This document shows, piece after piece, positions 52,652 to 63,335 of a DNA stretch of 64,000 nucleotides (position 1 is the first letter of the stretch; each line of letters starts with the position of its first letter). Origin of the DNA: Syntrophaceae bacterium (lineage in GTDB: Bacteria; Desulfobacterota; Syntrophia; Syntrophales; Smithellaceae); NCBI GenBank assembly GCA_009773315.1, contig WRPE01000005.1:26767-90766 (forward strand), given 5' to 3'. Both the position numbers and the translations under genes were made by a program. The notes beneath the pieces are model-generated. The model saw nothing but the letters and a program-made list of their open reading frames with translations. It ran no database searches and had not been told where the DNA came from.

Positions 52652-53599
52652 TTAATATACCACATTTTCCTGCTGCTTTACCCACGTCTTCACGTCTTTT
52701 AATAAAGCTTTTCTGAATTCATCCGGCTCCAAAATCACGATATGCGGAATCCAGGACTTGAGGATGTCGCGGATAGACTCGTAGTTGCCTACTCGGAAGA
52801 TGACGACAAGTGATCCATCAGGCTTGACTTCCCTGATCTCCTGAGTCGGGTACATCTTCCGCCGTCGAAAATAATCACTGACGGCTCTGCCCACGAGAAC
52901 GACAACTTCCAGATTACTCTCCTCTTCAAACCAGATATTAGCGCTTGACCGTAGTGCAGCATCAAGATTTTCCGGGAAAGCTTTGAAGCCCGCCTTTAAT
53001 GATCTCAAATCACCGATCTTGTCCATGGCATAGCGCTTGTGTTTCCCGGAATCCGGCTCATTGCCGATGAGATACCAGAAGCCGCTGAAGTAAACAACGC
53101 GGTAAGGCTCAAGATTGACGGAATGTGCGCCTTGCTTTGCAGCATACTGGAAGCTGACCTGTCTTTTCTCCCTGATGGCCTTCACAATCCGGTTCAGCAG
53201 GGCACTGTCCAAGTGGACAGCATCATTAATCTTTACGAAAACCGGCATATTGGTGACACAGTCATACAGACTGTTCAGGACAGAATCGGCAGCATTCTGG
53301 AAAGGTTGCCCCAACTGCCCGACAATGTTCTTCAAGGCTACCACCAGGGCCAGCTCCGTGTCGTCAAAGACCTCAAGGTTCTTTACCAGGTCTTTACTCA
53401 ACAGATAGTTGCCTTTCTGAATTTCATAGATAGGAAAACCGGATTCTTTAAGCAGCAAGAGATCACGCTGGATAGTCCGTGGGGTAGTCTGGAAGTATTC
53501 ACTTAGCCAAGTGCTGGAGACCTTCTCCTTTTCCATGAAGATCCGAAGAATTTGTCCCAGACGGATCAGTTTTGTCTGCGCGTTGCGGTCACGGGTCAT
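52652..53599 (-). CDS. WYL-domain transcriptional regulator (HTH-WYL), divergent from defence operon
   Basis: N-terminal HTH (STWLSEYFQTTPRTIQRDLLLLKESGFPIYEIQKGNYLL), WYL core (YRVVYFSGFWYLIGNEPDSGKHKRYAMDKIGDL). Confidence 0.9.
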   Translation of the reverse strand: MTRDRNAQTKLIRLGQILRIFMEKEKVSSTWLSEYFQTTPRTIQRDLLLLKESGFPIYEIQKGNYLLSKDLVKNLEVFDDTELALVVALKNIVGQLGQPFQNAADSVLNSLYDCVTNMPVFVKINDAVHLDSALLNRIVKAIREKRQVSFQYAAKQGAHSVNLEPYRVVYFSGFWYLIGNEPDSGKHKRYAMDKIGDLRSLKAGFKAFPENLDAALRSSANIWFEEESNLEVVVLVGRAVSDYFRRRKMYPTQEIREVKPDGSLVVIFRVGNYESIRDILKSWIPHIVILEPDEFRKALLKDVKTWVKQQENVVY

Positions 53600-53841
53600 G
53601 GTTTTTCTCCCTTCCCTTAAAGAAATAATATTATTCTGACAATAATAATGCGACGTACGGTTGTCGTTGTGACATTGAACTATCAGAGATTATCGATTAT
53701 GGTCAACTTAAAAAAGAAGAATTATTGACAAATCGTTAGTGAAATTTTATAGATAAAAGCCACTTGCCAAACACCAGACGAAACATTGAGTTTAAGTTTG
53801 CCAGAAAGCAGTTAATCGGCAGAAACAAATTGGAGTCGCGC

Positions 53842-54105
53842 ATGAGTAAACTCATATTTATTTGGAATATCGATCATAATAAAAAAGTGAAAATCAAGGA
53901 AATCAGAGAATATAATATTGTCAGAGAAAGCAGCGATGAAAAATCTGAATATTGCGTTGACGCTTTTGGATTTTTCCATGGTGCCGTCCGTGTATTCAAA
54001 GGAAGCAAGATGGATTGCATTGACTTCGTAGATTCTCTTACGGAAAGAACCGGAAACAAGCAGGAAGAGATGAATGAAAACTGTTTAGAAAAAAGGGGTG
54101 AATAA
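53842..54105 (+). CDS. Small hypothetical protein at start of defence operon
   Basis: ORF MSKLIFIWNIDHNKKVKIKEIREYNIVRESS...; co-directional, followed immediately by 54107 gene. Confidence 0.5.
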   Translation: MSKLIFIWNIDHNKKVKIKEIREYNIVRESSDEKSEYCVDAFGFFHGAVRVFKGSKMDCIDFVDSLTERTGNKQEEMNENCLEKRGE

Positions 54106-54106
54106 T

Positions 54107-54772
54107 ATGGCAAACGCAACAGATAATCTTGAACAAGCAGAGAAAATAGTTAATGGGATTGTATATGGACACATTGAAAAAGACCGTGCGTTAAATATAT
54201 GTCGTTGGCTCATGTCTTTTAACTCACAAGAAAAAGGCTTCAGCGTCAAATGCTACCAAACAAATGTCCCAGACATCAGGTTTTGTGTTGACAGAGGAAG
54301 CGACTGTGAAGGAAAAAAAATTCGAACCGTTTTTGTAACAATAAGATCAAATCTTCAAATATTATTTCATACAAAAAACACTGATTTCACATACCTTAAA
54401 CAAGATCAAAATGATATTTATTATATAATTCCTGAAGCTGGCAAAAAACTTGATATGGCAAGAATAAAATTTCATATTCTTGAAGCATATTGCCAAAAGA
54501 TTGACCAGCTTAAATTAAATTCCTCTATGTGCATTGGAACCAAAATCACCGAGACTATTGAAACAAATGACACTGCTATTAACTATTATACTTTTCAGAA
54601 AGAAGATTTTGAAAAAGCATACCGAACGATCGCCAAAAAAAACCAGAGTGTTTTCATAGATGCCGTTCTAGATCAGCTCGAACTTGGCGCGAAAACATTG
54701 GGGCATAAGCTGAAAAATAACTGGAGACTTGAAACTGAAAGAAACATCGCAATCTGGTCGAAGATGAAATGA
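54107..54772 (+). CDS. Hypothetical protein of defence operon
   Basis: MANATDNLEQAEKIVNGIVYGHIEKDRALNICRWLMSF...; co-directional, AT-rich. Confidence 0.6.
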   Translation: MANATDNLEQAEKIVNGIVYGHIEKDRALNICRWLMSFNSQEKGFSVKCYQTNVPDIRFCVDRGSDCEGKKIRTVFVTIRSNLQILFHTKNTDFTYLKQDQNDIYYIIPEAGKKLDMARIKFHILEAYCQKIDQLKLNSSMCIGTKITETIETNDTAINYYTFQKEDFEKAYRTIAKKNQSVFIDAVLDQLELGAKTLGHKLKNNWRLETERNIAIWSKMK

Positions 54773-55083
54773 TTCTCATCATCATTTTCCGGTGAGATGC
54801 AGTAATAAATCGAAAGAAATTGATATGAATTATAAATTTGATGAATATTATAAAACGTGGGATAAACATGGTGTTAAATTAACCTCCCGGATTGAAATAA
54901 CAAAAGATCATTTGGATCAAGTGACCGAGAAACCTGATGTTTGTGACGTTCTCCCTTTTATTGCTGAGTGCCCTGGAAAATGGCAGTAAGTAAGGAGTGA
55001 TAGCCGTAGTGACAGAAAAACATGAATAAACTAAGAAGAGAGGGCATTTTTAGATAAATTAATTTCTAAAGGGGGGCCATAAT

Positions 55084-55647
55084 ATGGCCATTGTAAGCGA
55101 ACAAAACAGGAAAATACTAAAAAACATGAAAAAAGAAGATGTAAAAAATGCTATGGACCTTTTTGATCAAAAATTCAGAAAGGATTTCGAAAAGACAAGG
55201 TGGAAAAAATATAGCCTATTACATAATGGGCAGTCATATCCACCCAAAGACCTTCTTAGATGTGTCATTGCTGGAATGACGAACTCCTTATATGACCGCG
55301 ATTCTGTAATAGGTGGTGGTCCTAGTATTAATAAATACTTTATTAACCTTGGCTTTACTGTTGAGAATAATGAAAAGCCGTCTGTTAATGTAAGTAAACC
55401 GAACCTCTATGCACGGCAGGAACCAACAAGCACCCCTCCTGCAGGCGAAATCCCAACCAGGGAAGAAATCAAAAAAATCCTTGGAGAAATAGCGCCTGAA
55501 GGAAGAGAAGTTGATGAAGATTCATTAAAGAGTAGAATAGAAGTTACTTTTAAACTTAAAAATCGAATGCTCATGCCCGACTGGTGGGAAATCACGAAAA
55601 AAAATCTCTTAGATTGGTCGAATAAGGACAGAAAGGACAAAGAATGA
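55084..55647 (+). CDS. Protein with ScoMcrA N-terminal-head-like region plus shared C-terminal module
   Basis: WKKYSLLHNGQSYPPKDLLRCVIAGM...SVIGGGPSINKYFINLGFTV resembles the head domain of ScoMcrA-type restriction enzymes; C-terminal EIPTREEIKKILGEIAPE...LMPDWWEITKKNLLDWSNK. Confidence 0.65.
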   Translation: MAIVSEQNRKILKNMKKEDVKNAMDLFDQKFRKDFEKTRWKKYSLLHNGQSYPPKDLLRCVIAGMTNSLYDRDSVIGGGPSINKYFINLGFTVENNEKPSVNVSKPNLYARQEPTSTPPAGEIPTREEIKKILGEIAPEGREVDEDSLKSRIEVTFKLKNRMLMPDWWEITKKNLLDWSNKDRKDKE

Positions 55648-56240
55648 CATACAGTAAGTATGCTGAAATGGCATTACGCTATGGGATAAAGCCGAATATT
55701 CCTATTACAGCAGAAGTATTAGACAAACTGAAAGAACAGTCAGAAATATTTGATTTAATATGGGGATCACAAGCTGCAATAAGCAACAATTCTTCACCGG
55801 CCATATTAAGTATAAGCACTATGGCTGAAATTCGAAGATTAAATGACCTGCTGCTCACACATCCGGCATTCAATAAAGAAAAATACAAAAATAGCAGGAA
55901 TGAAATAGAGAAACGTGCAGATAAACATTACTCTGTTGATGTGCGACATTCTCTCAAGCGTTTTACAGAACGACAAGAAAAAATCAGAATTAAGCTGGGC
56001 CTTAGCAATACAGGCAACACTAAAATGACAAAAGAGCATAAGGAATCTGAGTCTCCAGACAGTGAAATTCCTTCTAGGAATGAGGTTGAAGCGGCAATGC
56101 GCAATATCGGCAAACAAGTTCACGAAGATATTCTAAAAGAAACTTTGAATGCCGTCTTTACGAATCAGGGACGAAAACTCCGCAAGGATTGGTGGGAAGT
56201 AACCAAGAAAAATCTTGAAGAATGGTCTAAGAAAGGATGA
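55644..56240 (+). CDS. Hypothetical protein sharing the C-terminal DWWE(I/V)TKKNL module
   Basis: 4-nt overlap with upstream gene; EIPSRNEVEAAMRNIGKQVHEDILKETLNAVFTNQGRKLRKDWWEVTKKNLEEWSKK. Confidence 0.65.
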   Translation: MTYSKYAEMALRYGIKPNIPITAEVLDKLKEQSEIFDLIWGSQAAISNNSSPAILSISTMAEIRRLNDLLLTHPAFNKEKYKNSRNEIEKRADKHYSVDVRHSLKRFTERQEKIRIKLGLSNTGNTKMTKEHKESESPDSEIPSRNEVEAAMRNIGKQVHEDILKETLNAVFTNQGRKLRKDWWEVTKKNLEEWSKKG

Positions 56241-56243
56241 TTC

Positions 56244-57413
56244 ATGTCGCAAATAGATTATAACCCGTTGAAAAGGACCGTGAGAATGTGGGGAACTATG
56301 GAACATATCTATGACTATTATGAAGACAAAGATTATTTCTTCTCCCAGGAAATACTGACGCGCTATTTCCTGTCCCTTAAAACAAAGCCATTTGTTATCC
56401 TGACAGGGATCTCCGGCACGGGAAAGACGAAGATTGCCCAAGTCTTCGCGGAATACATGTGCCAAGGGCTTTCTTCTGAGGAAAAAGCAAAGCGCATCGC
56501 CTTTGTACCAGTGCGGCCTGACTGGATGGATAACAAGGGACTTCTGGGATATTATAATCTTCTTGATGAAAAATATCATGCCACACCAGTCTTGCAAATT
56601 CTACTGGAGGCATCAGAACATCAGGACAAGCCATATTTCATTATTCTCGATGAAATGAATCTGGCCAAGGTGGAACAGTATTTCTCCGATTTCCTGAGCA
56701 TCATGGAGAGCCGGACAACTGGAAATCTTTCCGGTGAACCGCTCTGTCTGCATTCGGCTACAAAGGCCGAAACGCCTGACGGGTGGGTCATTCCACAACG
56801 GATCATAATCCCGTCAAATGTCTATTTTACCGGGACCGTCAACGTGGATGAATCCACCTACATGTTCAGCCCGAAGGTTCTGGACCGGGCGAATGTTATC
56901 GAGTTCAACGAAGTGGATCTGGCAAGCTATGAAAAGGGGATTACTTCGGCTGATGGATGCATCCTGAAGGAACAGGATGTCAGAGAAAAACTGCTGCCGA
57001 TGGCGGGGGAAACGCCTTTCTGCAACAAGGCCGATTATACCAGAGCCCAGGAAATGGATAGCGATACCGGTGTGTATCTTTCAAAAATCCTGGAAATTCT
57101 CCATCCCCATCACCTCCATTTCGGCTTTCGCGTCGTCAATGAAATTTCCCGGTTTATCCTGCATGCCAGTGACATGCTCCAGGATTTTAAACTCGAAGAA
57201 ACGCTGGATATCCAGATCCTTCAGAAGATCCTACCCAAGTTTCACGGCACCCAGGCGAAACTGGAAGAACCGCTGGGAAAACTGCTGGCCTTTTGCAGCG
57301 GTGTAGAGTCTGAAGAAATTCCGGAAGATGCCCCGTTTCCCAGATCAGCGCAGAAACTGGCCAGGATGATCCAGAACCTGAAAATTCAAGGCTATGCGAG
57401 CTTTATCGAGTAA
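56244..57413 (+). CDS. McrB-like AAA+ ATPase
   Basis: FVILTGISGTGKTKIAQVFAEYM Walker A, YFIILDEMNLAKVEQYFSDFLSIMESR Walker B, NVDESTYMFSPKVLDRANVIEF. Confidence 0.88.
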   Translation: MSQIDYNPLKRTVRMWGTMEHIYDYYEDKDYFFSQEILTRYFLSLKTKPFVILTGISGTGKTKIAQVFAEYMCQGLSSEEKAKRIAFVPVRPDWMDNKGLLGYYNLLDEKYHATPVLQILLEASEHQDKPYFIILDEMNLAKVEQYFSDFLSIMESRTTGNLSGEPLCLHSATKAETPDGWVIPQRIIIPSNVYFTGTVNVDESTYMFSPKVLDRANVIEFNEVDLASYEKGITSADGCILKEQDVREKLLPMAGETPFCNKADYTRAQEMDSDTGVYLSKILEILHPHHLHFGFRVVNEISRFILHASDMLQDFKLEETLDIQILQKILPKFHGTQAKLEEPLGKLLAFCSGVESEEIPEDAPFPRSAQKLARMIQNLKIQGYASFIE

Positions 57414-57414
57414 T

Positions 57415-59079
57415 ATGGCGATTCTCCTTTATTCATCAGAACTCCGCATGGCCATAGCCGATGATCCCCAGTTTCTGTCCGACGAATCGGCATTATCGTC
57501 AATGGATCATGACGGCACGCCCATCATCCTTCAGGACTGGGAAACCTATTTTGTCAAGTTTTATGGTGAAACCGAGCCCCCGTTCTTTCCGGAACCAGGG
57601 AGATATTACAATCAACGAAAATTTCCAGGTCGGCTGTTTGAGGTAAGTTTTCGCAACGCCGTGGGAATGACGCGCATCGGCCCCATCCCTATCCTTGTTG
57701 TCAGCAGAAAAATCACGGATACGGTTTACGCGGCGATGCTGGATTATATCGCCGGGAAGTACGCCAATCTGGTGTTCAGCTTTGAAAACCCGCTCGGTCA
57801 GCAATACTGTAAGGATAGGCCGGGGCAGGATATCGCCTATGTGGAATATCTTTTCCTCAAAAAATATCTCCTGGACGGATCGCCAAACATAGACAGTATT
57901 GCCGCACTAATCCTGGCCAATCCCCACCGCAGGCTCTATCGGGAATATCGCCGTAACAGCATTGATGCGATCACAAGTATTCCGCCAGCGATGCTAGTCA
58001 ACATGTTCAGTTCACCCGACCGCTTCGCTGTCCTGAAACCCGATCATCCTTTGGTGTCAACAGCCTGCGGACGGGCCATCTTCAACAGAACCGGTCGGAG
58101 GTTGTTTCCCGCCGAGGCCATGGAGGAACGGAAGCATTATACAGTGGATACGAATGAAAACCGGTTCATGAAGCATTTTCTGCAATCGGTTCAGCGCCGT
58201 CTGCAAGGTCTGGCGAAAGCCCTGAAGGGAAAAAGCGGTGGCTATCTCAATCCCGATATTGAAGCATCTCTGGAAAAAATGGACAGGGGACTTATGTTTT
58301 TTTTATCCGATCCCTTCTGGTCCGATGTGGGAACCATGCGCTTCATTCCGGCCGGGTCGCAGGTCTTGCAGCGTCGCGACGGCTACCGCCAGTTGTTCCG
58401 TCTTTATTCTTTGCTTCAGCTTGCCACCCATTGCCATTTCAATAACGATGATTTTCAAAATCTTCTGGAAACCAAAGATACTCCGACGCTTTTTGAATAC
58501 TGGTCCTTTTTCGTTGTTAAGGATGTTCTGGATAAAATAAACAAAATCCGGTCCTGCAGGACGGTTGTATCCACCGATCCTCTTGAACAAAAAATAATTC
58601 AGGGCATCTGCATCGAATATGAAGGCGGAATTTTCCTGTGGTTCAATAGAATCTCTCCAGGGTCTCCCGGGTTCATGCCTTTCGAAAATCCGCGTAATAC
58701 CGTTCCCAATGAAAGCTACTCCCATAACCTGCGACCAGATATCGTCATTTCGAGAGGCAACAACATACTCATATTCGATGCCAAATTCAAAGGCCAGCGG
58801 GACAGTTTTTACGGTGATGAGAGGGGTGACGGAACCATCGGTAAATGGAGGGAAGAGGACATCGACAAGATGCATACCTACCGGGAGGCAATCCGGAATG
58901 TCTCCGGCGCCTATATCCTCTATCCGGGGGAGGAAGCGGCCATTTATTCGGCGCACAATTCGACAGGAATATATGAAGGTGTTGGAGCCTTGCCATTAAA
59001 GCCGGAAGCGGGGGCGCGACCGGTTCAGCGGCACCTCGAAGGTATCGAAAAGATAGTCAAAGAGTTTATTGCTGTATGA
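57415..59079 (+). CDS. DUF2357-domain / McrC-like PD-(D/E)XK nuclease protein
   Basis: Follows McrB-like gene; C-terminal LRPDIVISRGNNILIFDAKFKGQRDSFYGDE...DIDKMHTYREAI nuclease-like motif. Start approximate. Confidence 0.8.
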   Translation: MAILLYSSELRMAIADDPQFLSDESALSSMDHDGTPIILQDWETYFVKFYGETEPPFFPEPGRYYNQRKFPGRLFEVSFRNAVGMTRIGPIPILVVSRKITDTVYAAMLDYIAGKYANLVFSFENPLGQQYCKDRPGQDIAYVEYLFLKKYLLDGSPNIDSIAALILANPHRRLYREYRRNSIDAITSIPPAMLVNMFSSPDRFAVLKPDHPLVSTACGRAIFNRTGRRLFPAEAMEERKHYTVDTNENRFMKHFLQSVQRRLQGLAKALKGKSGGYLNPDIEASLEKMDRGLMFFLSDPFWSDVGTMRFIPAGSQVLQRRDGYRQLFRLYSLLQLATHCHFNNDDFQNLLETKDTPTLFEYWSFFVVKDVLDKINKIRSCRTVVSTDPLEQKIIQGICIEYEGGIFLWFNRISPGSPGFMPFENPRNTVPNESYSHNLRPDIVISRGNNILIFDAKFKGQRDSFYGDERGDGTIGKWREEDIDKMHTYREAIRNVSGAYILYPGEEAAIYSAHNSTGIYEGVGALPLKPEAGARPVQRHLEGIEKIVKEFIAV

Positions 59080-59831
59080 TAGAAATAGCATACATGATCG
59101 AATTACTGAAAAAGCTCAATACGGATGTCACGTTCAGGCCAGATAACGGCGCGTTTCGCTCTAAACTGGTTGAAACGGTCATTGATAATGCTGATGAAGA
59201 ATACGTGGAGCTTTTTTCCGCAAATAGCTGCGATATACAGGTCATCATTTCGAATCGAACTATTGACGAAGGTGTAATACGGTTTGTGGTTGGCAGTGAT
59301 CTTGGTGAACAATCATTGGAATGCGACGTTTCCGTACTTAGTGAAAGGGCAATCCATGATCTTACCGGGCAGCTGACCCGATTAATTGCAGAACAGTCTC
59401 CACCTGAGACACATTGTCCACCAAAGGTCATTATCAGGAAAAATTATGAGGGTATGCTGAACATTCATCAGGCTGCGCAAAAACTCGGATGCTCGCAAAT
59501 ATTTCTGAAAAGCAGAATTCCCTGTACGTACTATACCTACAATGAGGTTAATGGTAAAAAAGAAATTAAGGAATATTACTGGTCAAAAAATCTGATTGAT
59601 CGACTATGCAACTCCAAGATGAATGGGATAAAAGAAGATGTGAAATATATTGCAGAGGAATGCTGTGAGGGTGATTACAAGTGGGCAGAGGAAATTTTGG
59701 GCTTGCTTGCACACCCTATGTCCATGCGCAAAGTTGATGCCGCATTACCGAAAAACATAACAAAACAGCCAGTAAAGTTCATTGCCAAGGGAACTACAAG
59801 CACCGAGCCTTCACGAAAGAAGATCCGATGA
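59076..59831 (+). CDS. Hypothetical protein with HTH-like C-terminal region
   Basis: 4-nt overlap with upstream gene; MLNIHQAAQKLGCSQIFLKSRIPCTYYTYNEVNGKKEIKEYYWSKNLIDRL. Confidence 0.65.
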   Translation: MIEIAYMIELLKKLNTDVTFRPDNGAFRSKLVETVIDNADEEYVELFSANSCDIQVIISNRTIDEGVIRFVVGSDLGEQSLECDVSVLSERAIHDLTGQLTRLIAEQSPPETHCPPKVIIRKNYEGMLNIHQAAQKLGCSQIFLKSRIPCTYYTYNEVNGKKEIKEYYWSKNLIDRLCNSKMNGIKEDVKYIAEECCEGDYKWAEEILGLLAHPMSMRKVDAALPKNITKQPVKFIAKGTTSTEPSRKKIR

Positions 59832-59881
59832 GTACTCCCCCTTTGAACATCTGTGAATTCATCAAGGAATCCTGAACGCTT

Positions 59882-62800
59882 ATGCAGAAAATTGAAGACA
59901 CAATTTATTACTCTGCTTCCGATGTCGTCAATTTTCTTGAATGCGAGCATCTGACGGCGTTGGGTCTAATCAACCTGGAAACCCCTCTTCCTCAAACTGA
60001 GGATGACGAGGAGGCCATTCTGTATCAGCAGAAGGGGGTTGCCCATGAAGGGGCGTATGTTGATCACCTTCGAAACAGTGTGTCATGTCTCGTGGATATT
60101 TCCGGACACAGGAATGATCTGGATATGGCGGTGTTGGCGACTCAGGACGCTATGCGTTCCGGGGCAGATATCATCTATCAGGCCGCTTTGCGAAATGGTT
60201 TCTTTATAGGCCATGCGGATTTCTTAAGACGGGTAGCCATGCCATCCAGCCTGGGCAACTTCAGCTATGAGGTTATCGACACCAAACTGGCCCGTTCTGC
60301 CAAGGCTTCATATCTCATTCAACTTTGTTTCTATTCCGAACTGGTTGCCCACATCCAGGGGCAGAATCCCCTCATGATGCACATCGTCCTTGGTGATCGC
60401 CGGGAGGTAAGTTATCGCCATGCCAACTATTCCCGGTACTATGGATTTCTTAAACAGCGATTTGTCAACCGGGTCCATTCACCAGCAAATGAAACCTACC
60501 CGGACCGCTGTGAACACTGTGATTATTGCCGGTGGCGAAATCTGTGTGAGGATCGCCGTCTCAAGGACGATCATCTGAGTCTGGTTGCCAATATCACTCG
60601 CCTTCAGATAAGGAAGTTGAATGCTCATGGCGTAACGACACTGGAATCACTAGCCAAACTTCCAGTGCATGAATATATCCCTAAAATGATTCCAGAAACG
60701 CTGGGAAAACTACGCCATCAGGCGGCGCTGCAACTTCGCAAACGGGAAACAGGAACAGACTGCTTCGATCTCCTGCCCCTGGATTTGGAAGAAAAAAGGG
60801 GATTCTTTAGACTGCCGAAATCTGATGCCGGGGATATTTTCTTCGATATGGAAGGAAACCCGCTTGCGGAAGATGGTTTGGAATACTTGTTCGGTGCTCT
60901 GATATTCAACGGGGGAAAACCTTCTTTCCAGAGCTATTGGGCACATAACCGGCATGAAGAACGACAGGCCTTTGAGCAGTTCTTGGATTTTGTCGCCGGT
61001 CATCTTCAAAAACATCCCCATGCCCACATCTACCACTATGCCCATTACGAAGAGACAGCCCTGAAACGGCTTATGTCCTTTCATGGGACGCGGGAAGCGG
61101 AGGTGGATAATCTGCTGCGCCTTGGCAAGCTCATTGATCTTTTCAAGGTTGTCCGGGAATGTATGATAATTTCAGAACCCCGTTATTCGATCAAGAATGT
61201 GGAGCATTTCTATCTCGAAAAACGGGTTGGGCAGGTCAAAGACGCCGGGGCAAGTATTGTCTATTACGAACGGTGGAAGGAGACGGGTAATCCTGAACTT
61301 CTCAACGCAATAGAAGACTACAATCGTGATGATCTCAAATCGACTCACGAACTTCGGCAATGGCTGCTGACATTGAGGCCGGATGGAATACCTTGGGCAA
61401 ATAGTGAATCTCATGCAACCATTGTTGAGATGGGCGAGTTGAATGAGGTTGAACAACGACTGGCCCATTACAGAGAATTGCTGGTCGATTCCCTTCCTGT
61501 GGACCGGAGTGTCTGGTCTTCACAGGAACACTTTCAGGAGCTGACCTGGCAGCTTCTCGATTTTCACCGACGTGCCGACAAGCCCGTCTGGTGGGCATAT
61601 TTCTCCCGGCAGGAGATGACCGATGAAGAACTCATGGAAGATGTGGAATCGATTGGCGGTATGACAAGAATTCCCGACGATTCCAAAAAATCAGACAGGG
61701 GTGCTTTAGAGTATGCGTATCGTTATCCTGAACAGGAAACGAAACTCAAAACAGGAGATAGTTGTATCCGCATTGATACGCTGGAGAAAATCAAGAATTT
61801 AGAAATTGATGAGGATAAGCGTTGTGTAAAACTTCTTTCCTTTCCCCGCAACAGCCCGTTACCTGACAAATTGAGCATTGGCCCGGGTGGGCCGATACCA
61901 ACGAAAACTCTTCGAGAAGCATTATACCGCTTTGCCGACAATGTCATCGCGGAGCAGCATGGTTATATGGCCATTGAGGCCCTGCTGAAGCAGGAACTTC
62001 CTCGAATCAAGGGCCATTCTCCGGGAACCTCCGTTATCATGGATATCGGTGATCCCCTTTCCCAAATTACAGAGGCCGTGGCAAACCTCGATCAAAGCTG
62101 CCTTTTCATCCAGGGACCTCCCGGTTCCGGGAAGACATGGACGGGCGCACATGTCATCGTAGAGCTTCTGAGCCGTGGGCTCCGTATCGGCATATCATCA
62201 AACAGCCATAAGGCCATCAACAATCTGCTGGCAAGTGTTGAAAGGATTGCCGAAGAAAAGGGCGTCACTTTCTGCGGGGCGAAGAAGTCTGTGTCTGACA
62301 GGGAAGACAGTTTGTTCAATGGCAAGATAATTGAGGATGTATTCAGCAATAAGGAGATGTGTGATGAATGCTGGCAGCTTGTTGCCGGGACAGCTTGGCT
62401 GTTTTCTACAGAACCAATGGATAAGGCTTTTGATTACCTATTTGTAGATGAGGCCGGACAAGTTGCTGTTGCGAATCTCGTCGCTATGGCAACCAGCACT
62501 AAAAATATCGTTCTTATCGGGGATCAGATGCAACTTGCGCAACCGATCCAAGGCATACACCCCGGTCGATCGGGAGAATCCTCTTTGGAATACCTTCTGA
62601 ACGGCATGGCGACCATTCCTCCGGAACGCGGTATCTTCCTCAAAACAACTTGGCGAATGCATCCAGATGTGTGCCGATTTATTTCCGATGCGGTGTATGA
62701 CAGTCGTCTGCTGCCGGAAATGGCGAACAGCGTGCAGCAACTTATCCTTGACAAGAATACACATCCTTTTCTCAAACCGGCGGGTATCCTTTTTGTCGCT

Positions 62801-63280
62801 GCCGATCATGATGCTTGCTCACAAAGGAGTGAAGAAGAGGCTGGGATAGTCTTAGAACTCTATCGGAGTCTCTTGAAACAAAGATTTGCCGATAAAAAAG
62901 GGAAGTCGCATCGGATAGCAGAAGACAACATTTTAGTAGTAGCACCCTACAACATGCAAGTGAATCTCCTCAAGCGTATTCTGCCAAAAGGTGCCCGCGT
63001 AGGCACAGTGGACAAATTTCAGGGACAGGAGGCCGAAGTGGTCATCATTTCTATGGCCACATCCAACGGTGATTATTTACCTCGAGTAATTGAATTTTTG
63101 TACAGCAGAAACAGACTGAACGTCGCCATTTCCAGGGCCAGATGTCTCGCTATCCTGATCGCCAATACAGCCCTGATGTCGATCCGCTGCACAACACCGG
63201 AGCAGATGGCTTTGGTTAACACCCTCTGCTGGGTTAAAAACTATTCCGAAACCACAATGATCACTTTACACTGCGAGTAG
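59882..63280 (+). CDS. TM0106-family RecB-like nuclease / RNase H-like / SF1 helicase fusion
   Basis: 1132 aa; N-terminal RecB-like with CEHCDYCRWRNLC, RNase H-like DIFFDMEGNPLAEDGLEYLFG, helicase Walker A FIQGPPGSGKTWTGA, VDEAGQ, GTVDKFQGQEAEVVIISM. Confidence 0.9.
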   Translation: MQKIEDTIYYSASDVVNFLECEHLTALGLINLETPLPQTEDDEEAILYQQKGVAHEGAYVDHLRNSVSCLVDISGHRNDLDMAVLATQDAMRSGADIIYQAALRNGFFIGHADFLRRVAMPSSLGNFSYEVIDTKLARSAKASYLIQLCFYSELVAHIQGQNPLMMHIVLGDRREVSYRHANYSRYYGFLKQRFVNRVHSPANETYPDRCEHCDYCRWRNLCEDRRLKDDHLSLVANITRLQIRKLNAHGVTTLESLAKLPVHEYIPKMIPETLGKLRHQAALQLRKRETGTDCFDLLPLDLEEKRGFFRLPKSDAGDIFFDMEGNPLAEDGLEYLFGALIFNGGKPSFQSYWAHNRHEERQAFEQFLDFVAGHLQKHPHAHIYHYAHYEETALKRLMSFHGTREAEVDNLLRLGKLIDLFKVVRECMIISEPRYSIKNVEHFYLEKRVGQVKDAGASIVYYERWKETGNPELLNAIEDYNRDDLKSTHELRQWLLTLRPDGIPWANSESHATIVEMGELNEVEQRLAHYRELLVDSLPVDRSVWSSQEHFQELTWQLLDFHRRADKPVWWAYFSRQEMTDEELMEDVESIGGMTRIPDDSKKSDRGALEYAYRYPEQETKLKTGDSCIRIDTLEKIKNLEIDEDKRCVKLLSFPRNSPLPDKLSIGPGGPIPTKTLREALYRFADNVIAEQHGYMAIEALLKQELPRIKGHSPGTSVIMDIGDPLSQITEAVANLDQSCLFIQGPPGSGKTWTGAHVIVELLSRGLRIGISSNSHKAINNLLASVERIAEEKGVTFCGAKKSVSDREDSLFNGKIIEDVFSNKEMCDECWQLVAGTAWLFSTEPMDKAFDYLFVDEAGQVAVANLVAMATSTKNIVLIGDQMQLAQPIQGIHPGRSGESSLEYLLNGMATIPPERGIFLKTTWRMHPDVCRFISDAVYDSRLLPEMANSVQQLILDKNTHPFLKPAGILFVAADHDACSQRSEEEAGIVLELYRSLLKQRFADKKGKSHRIAEDNILVVAPYNMQVNLLKRILPKGARVGTVDKFQGQEAEVVIISMATSNGDYLPRVIEFLYSRNRLNVAISRARCLAILIANTALMSIRCTTPEQMALVNTLCWVKNYSETTMITLHCE

Positions 63281-63291
63281 GTGAATCTGGC

Positions 63292-63335
63292 CCGAACGGA
63301 TTAATTTTTGTCTGCGTGTTGAGGTCACGGGACAT
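63292..63335 (-). pseudogene. 5' remnant of a second WYL-regulator gene
   Basis: Minus strand ATGTCCCGTGACCTCAACACGCAGACAAAAATTAATCCG = MSRDLNTQTKINP vs MTRDRNAQTKLIR at start of the 53599 WYL gene. Confidence 0.6.

Follow-up and report, generated by a model that had tools for sequence, protein, structure and literature searches.

What kind of system is encoded by an operon that joins an McrB-like ATPase and a DUF2357 nuclease to several small proteins and a large nuclease-helicase, and which of its products would choose the target? The operon lies in a 64,000-nucleotide stretch of DNA from a Syntrophaceae bacterium (hereafter the window), which is part of a 90.8-kb contig in a genome of 2.98 Mb; the contig terminates at the window end, within an rRNA operon. 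A preliminary description had proposed a candidate defence system matching no named one. All ORFs listed there were found where it had placed them, the 1132-aa helicase among them, and so were the overlaps at 55644/55647 and 59076/59079. The operon had been called tight, which is borne out by the 4-nt overlaps but not throughout, because spacing is uneven, with 311 bp between 54772 and 55084 that contain a degraded adaptor fragment. The interval from the WYL regulator gene to McrB holds a small ORF and the genes of three small proteins, all intact (p224, p187 and p198), besides this degraded p198-type fragment. As anticipated, no named system matched: PADLOC gives only an unnamed candidate, PDC-M26A, for McrB (E 3e-61), and the model of that candidate is 724 aa long, compared with the AAA-only McrB of the window. 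No window gene other than McrB matched PDC-M26 in PADLOC, and no description of PDC-M26 was found in the literature searched. We read the locus, with a probability of roughly 0.6, as an McrBC-type restriction machine that is inducible and whose recognition subunits can be exchanged; its presumed defence function is suggested by gene family, context and a shared operator.

The identity of the central pair can be stated with great confidence. The McrB-type gene (56244..57413, + strand) encodes a 389-aa AAA ATPase/GTPase (AAA_5) without a specificity domain, with Walker A GISGTGKT (55), LDEMN (135) and the NxD motif GTVNVDES (197), and the protein aligns to solved McrB with an E of 4e-6. It has 54 residues ahead of Walker A and is AAA-only, with no fused modified-base specificity domain. 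McrC (57394..59079, + strand), which probably starts at 57415, directly after the McrB stop, as in relatives, combines DUF2357 (PF09823, 1e-43) with a PD-(D/E)xK nuclease (PDDEXK_7, PF04411, 2e-14). Its nuclease residues D449, D462 and K464 do not vary in the nine sequences compared, in which the relatives have 41-86% identity to the window McrC. The McrBC-like module of the preliminary description is thereby upheld, with its motifs intact. The sensor motif of McrB is NxD, likewise in the relatives compared, and the core almost certainly is McrBC-type and of the NxD branch. This branch is defined in PMC11090510 (Bell et al. 2024), which announces further work on NxD systems and states that none of their McrB proteins has been characterised. 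The E. coli type IV system shares with the window a tandem AAA protein and DUF2357-PD-(D/E)xK nuclease; in contrast, E. coli McrB has NxxD in place of NxD, and the window McrB lacks an N-terminal specificity domain, its readers apparently being separate proteins. Two distant McrB relatives (L095 and L096) have a long N-terminal part and an insertion within the AAA domain, which may be other routes to attach extra domains.

Membership in the NxD branch brings with it an alternative, namely that the operon acts in the manner of CoCoNuT systems, as an RNA-targeting abortive response with an NxD McrBC and a UPF1-like helicase. The NxD motif is that of the CoCoNuT branch, and UPF1/DNA2-like SF1 helicases occur in some of its types, as described in PMC11090510; the types concerned are II and III. 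However, the window operon encodes no coiled coils, and its McrB is too short upstream of Walker A to hold a long one; the McrC nuclease motif, often lost in CoCoNuT systems, is intact; the helicase is a TM0106-RNaseH-helicase and not CnuH or CnuE; and the operon is without a HEPN, CnuE or CnuA-like gene. We consider CoCoNuT-like action improbable.

What sets the locus apart from other type IV-like McrBC systems, in our reading as a restriction machine, is found upstream of McrB. The proteins p224 (54107..54772, + strand; docking domain about 54581-54757), p187 (55084..55647, + strand; about 55438-55617) and p198 (55644..56240, + strand; about 56055-56225) have unrelated N-terminal domains and a common C-terminal domain of about 60-70 aa, in agreement with the small adaptor-like proteins noted earlier, and the small proteins of genus-mates are alike only at their C-termini by BLAST comparison. 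Relatives too encode, immediately ahead of McrB, between one and three proteins with this domain (profile of ~60-70 residues) at their C-terminus: there are three copies in the window, L078 and L084, two in L079 and L081, and one each in L077, L048, L080, L082, L085 and L086. HMM E values for the domain reach 1e-30, and a rebuilt profile recovered all members. Recognisable versions in L089 and L076 were aligned by eye (alignment A3), and the A3 profile matches L076/G343 at 2e-13, the L076 sequence itself being part of A3. A divergent tail group (L072/L088, L090 and L074) is connected by a single profile-to-profile comparison, at 83% probability and an E of 8e-6. No Pfam family matched the docking domain, and four loci (L087, L092, L093 and L094), several of them incomplete, have no recognised adaptor beside McrC.

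The docking domain is closely tied to McrBC. Among 297 genomes of the phylum, tail matches with E<1e-10 occur only in G000, G221, G229, G277 and G343, each at an McrBC locus; three weaker matches (7e-4 to 9e-3) lie at unrelated places. AlphaFold2 models of p224 and p187 predict the tail as three helices, with pLDDT of 82-98 and mostly above 90, and give the N-domain portions of both proteins low confidence. The adaptors therefore probably act in trans, docking on the McrB/McrC complex, although it is possible that the partner of the tail is McrC instead of McrB. No description of docking adaptors for NxD systems was found in the accessible part of PMC11090510, and no plasmid relatives of p187 or p224 were found.

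The other end of these proteins is strikingly diverse, with 23 N-domains falling into 17 unrelated clusters by BLAST. Identity between the window and G007 is 94% for the helicase, 86% for McrC and 84% for McrB, compared with 37% for an adaptor. Because of this difference, and because the array includes a degraded adaptor (54825..54989, + strand; a p198-type N-domain fragment that is 56-59% identical to L077/L078 proteins across 39 aa), adaptors are judged from their sequences to turn over much faster than the core. No Pfam or NCBIfam family matched the N-domains above cut-off, and DNA-binding folds were not confidently assigned to them.

Two natural fusions bear most directly on what the N-domains do. 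L068 encodes an N-domain, the tail and an AAA domain in frame, and L081 encodes a p224-type N-domain (38% identity) fused directly to the McrB AAA domain, without the tail. The specificity domains of known McrB proteins sit N-terminal of the AAA domain (PMC11090510), and it is chiefly on the fusions that we base the view that the small proteins stand in for that N-terminal specificity domain. We accordingly lean towards the adaptors being target readers. Alternatively, the small proteins could be effectors, inhibitors or phage-protein sensors that dock on McrBC, rather than readers of nucleic acids. The high diversity of the N-domains, mostly without a recognised fold, fits this idea, as does the L086 N-domain, which looks enzyme-like from UDG-like motifs picked out by eye only. 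Yet L068 and L081 place such N-domains at the specificity-domain position, and one N-domain recurs, via an L048 fragment, in the HNH nuclease encoded ahead of the L068 McrB. A role other than target reading consequently seems rather unlikely to us.

Some individual N-domains gave hints of their own. The preliminary description had called the specificity proteins ScoMcrA-N-like, and of this there remains a weak resemblance of one adaptor, p187, through a shared motif (YPPK...GGG...GF) and a best but insignificant fold match. ScoMcrA takes Foldseek ranks 1-3 with an insignificant E of 0.36-1.4, and the comparison with the ScoMcrA head gives Z 2.6 and rmsd 3.8 over 49 residues only; a sequence profile search of the PDB with the p187 N-domain did not find ScoMcrA, and the motif also occurs in an unrelated protein (L164). 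The p187 N-domain may be weakly ScoMcrA-head-like. A fold search with p224 returned no meaningful match. The L086 adaptor (L086:7870-8805) has a 240-aa N-domain in which motifs resembling those of uracil-DNA glycosylase (GKCPG..., NPRSAS) were spotted by eye; we did not adopt this assignment, since a PDB sequence search gave no match and there was no profile support. The HNH endonuclease at L068:4423-5223 shares its N-terminal domain with the adaptor-like fragment L048:9539-9850 (33% identity, E 3e-9), and its HNH region gives a weak match to a phosphorothioate-dependent enzyme model.

The last gene of the operon (59882..63280, + strand) encodes a Dna2-like fusion of 1132 aa, in which domain matches identify an Fe-S RecB/TM0106 nuclease, RNase_H_2 and an SF1 helicase (AAA_11-AAA_12), as had been recognised beforehand. 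The protein scores 325 bits against TIGR03491 (TM0106; cut-off 97.45). Its RecB nuclease part is intact, with the Fe-S cysteines, GxD, DxK and Q present, the RNase_H_2 motif DxE...D is present, and every SF1 motif checked is intact. Solved relatives are SMUBP-2, DNA2 and UPF1. Dna2/Cas4-type nuclease-helicases and the TM0106 family likewise unite an Fe-S RecB nuclease with an SF1 helicase; the window protein differs from them in its extra RNase_H_2 domain and its McrBC linkage. PADLOC also reports Mokosh (MkoA) with an E of 2e-47, a match that we discarded, its best stretch being the helicase part (832-1114) and not the whole protein.

Coupling of this helicase to McrBC had been proposed as part of the system, and it does recur, adjoining this McrBC at eight loci: the window, G007, G015, G102, L082 (Bacteroidota), L084, L086 and L089, the last on the opposite strand and from a different helicase branch. 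Two gene orders are seen, with the helicase after McrC at some loci and ahead of the adaptors at others. The coupling is nonetheless not obligate. McrBC occurs without a full-length helicase in G221, G229, G277, G330, G487, G523 and G343, and among genomes picked at random from the phylum, other than the window's genus-mates, most of those with this McrBC lack the helicase; conversely, solo helicase copies exist (L045, L195 and L196). Because of both, the idea of an obligate part was rejected, and the helicase is treated here, from its distribution, as a recurrent accessory partner.

This pattern lends some weight to a different account, in which the helicase belongs to a defence module of its own, controlled by WYL, whose link with McrBC goes no further than a shared island. 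The plasmids pSA2 and pOM4 carry divergent WYL-helicase pairs without McrBC, and the solo copies and the many McrBC loci without a helicase agree with such a module. Against it, about 6-50 bp separate the helicase from its neighbour gene, and this in two opposite gene orders (window, L082, L084 and L086), and the McrBC-linked helicases, except that of L089, cluster together in a tree, along with one solo member (L045), although the helicase is rare in the rest of the phylum (at 1e-60 or better in 4 of 375 genomes). A separate module is a plausible account, to which we assign somewhat less than even odds; that the helicase works in the same pathway as McrBC is our tentative preference, held at just under even odds.

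Related arrangements were seen elsewhere. In L083:1830-6460 and L091, a split analogue of the fusion comes after McrBC: a DEDD exonuclease whose end looks WYL-like by eye, together with a RecB-like nuclease and an SF1 helicase. On a Caballeronia plasmid (L049:5104-13462), the same helicase family lies 1.6 kb past an operon ending in a 1104-aa DUF2357 protein.

Expression of the operon may be governed by the divergent WYL regulator (HTH_11-WYL-WCX; 52652..53599, - strand). Its best matches among solved structures are DriD chains, at 1e-7 to 1e-8; these are entries 8tp8 and 9pfq, which we take to be DriD and which the structure table names as DeoR-family or WYL proteins. No BrxR-annotated chain appears among the matches up to E<=5 in solved structures, and of the BrxR-like character once ascribed to this gene only the divergent placement is supported. 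Upstream of the operon lies a 44-bp promoter/operator element (53644..53687, + strand) that recurs in genus-mates, with half-sites ATGCGAC-N8-GTCGTTG (53648-53669) and, after them, a conserved TATCAGA, which may lie where the -10 would be. DriD, a Caulobacter WYL activator, binds ATACGAC-N7-GTCGTAT; its own promoter is bidirectional, and from there it activates an operon in the divergent direction (PMC12340889). The window half-sites agree with the DriD consensus at 6/7 and 5/7 positions, with a spacer of 8 compared with 7; taken together, all elements agree at 6-7 and 4-6 of 7 positions and mostly read ATGCGAC-N8-GTCGTnn. DriD thus shares with the window protein the HTH-WYL-WCX architecture, near-identical half-sites and a divergent promoter. 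Apart from the spacer, the two differ in that the window element fronts defence cassettes and DriD controls DNA-repair genes.

The operator pattern yields 12 sites in 7 of 20 genomes, compared with one site for a reversed control pattern, and every site read is upstream of a cassette and directed at it. The targets are McrBC adaptors (G000, G007 and G015), ARPP-1 (G008 and G013), a metallo-beta-lactamase cassette (G008), type I-E cas3-cse1 (G019), a WYL-ATPase pair (G024) and, further in G013, an Hsp70-like protein, an AlbA/Schlafen protein and type I-C cas3-cas5-cas7. From these sites and the regulator's relatives, a DriD-like regulon appears quite probable. By analogy with DriD alone, the WYL protein may sense ssDNA.

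In genus-mates with type I-C and I-E CRISPR-Cas, cas3 is preceded at a distance of about 570-660 bp by an operator-like element (L218:6536 and L219 (reverse complement):6516). The ~115 bp after the element are similar at both loci and may represent a leader or a small RNA. At L217:6346-6415, two facing operator copies (28-nt arms, 82% complementary) separate a metallo-beta-lactamase cassette from a divergent WYL gene (52% identical).

The WYL-to-helicase block is an island, because it is missing from G004, which is 94% identical upstream and in which the upstream gene and 5S rRNA nearly adjoin. Downstream of the helicase, a 53-bp partial copy of the start of the WYL gene (63283..63335, - strand) is found, as also in G007 and G015; this scar suggests that the island formed or moved via recombination between WYL copies. 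The operon is also present in a genus-mate, a Smithellaceae MAG (L077), and McrBC with adaptors occurs in relatives in several gene orders, so that the co-occurrence put forward for a neighbourhood check was confirmed. Two further genes complete the block. The small first ORF (53842..54105, + strand; 87 aa from the ATG at 53842, with a TTG start at 53764 possible) is 90% conserved in G007 and has no docking domain. The 251-aa accessory gene (p251; 59076..59831, + strand) had been listed as an HTH component; it is missing from the corresponding operon in three relatives, a family search gave no confident match and no HTH was detected, and we have dropped it as a component.

These elements can be assembled into a proposed course of action. 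Infection or DNA damage would produce ssDNA, which a DriD-like WYL activator would sense, firing the operon through the 44-bp element. The AAA-only McrB would assemble into an NTP-driven ring of the usual kind, and McrC would serve both as its activator and as the nuclease. Recognition domains would differ from adaptor to adaptor, and one of these proteins would dock via the common three-helix C-terminal domain and lead McrB/McrC to foreign nucleic acid, whereupon cleavage by the McrC PD-(D/E)xK nuclease would be driven by the ring. At loci that have it, the Dna2-like nuclease-helicase might unwind and degrade the cleavage products. HsdS of type I restriction offers an analogy in how such a machine would work, since there too separate, fast-evolving specificity subunits serve one motor-nuclease; no homology is claimed, and unlike type I systems the window has no methyltransferase and places several adaptors in one operon. 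It is conceivable, though we hold the full combination only tentatively, that tandem plug-in specificity subunits with a dedicated docking domain allow several target chemistries to be read at once and new ones to be acquired by small-gene swaps, with induction through a DriD-like regulon that senses ssDNA and, in related genomes, extends to CRISPR-Cas.

The new element of this type IV-like McrBC locus is its upstream adaptors with their shared docking domain. If our reading is true, the shared operator would define a coordinated, DNA-damage-linked defence regulon of McrBC, type I-C and I-E CRISPR-Cas, ARPP-1 and Hsp70-type cassettes, which is directly testable. The adaptors would provide a ready source of natural recognition domains, and the 17 unrelated N-domain groups, all marked by the same docking domain, a route to new nucleic-acid readers. 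For the McrBC family itself, it would mean that target reading can be uncoupled from the motor-nuclease in restriction, so that a single engine becomes plug-and-play and multi-specific.
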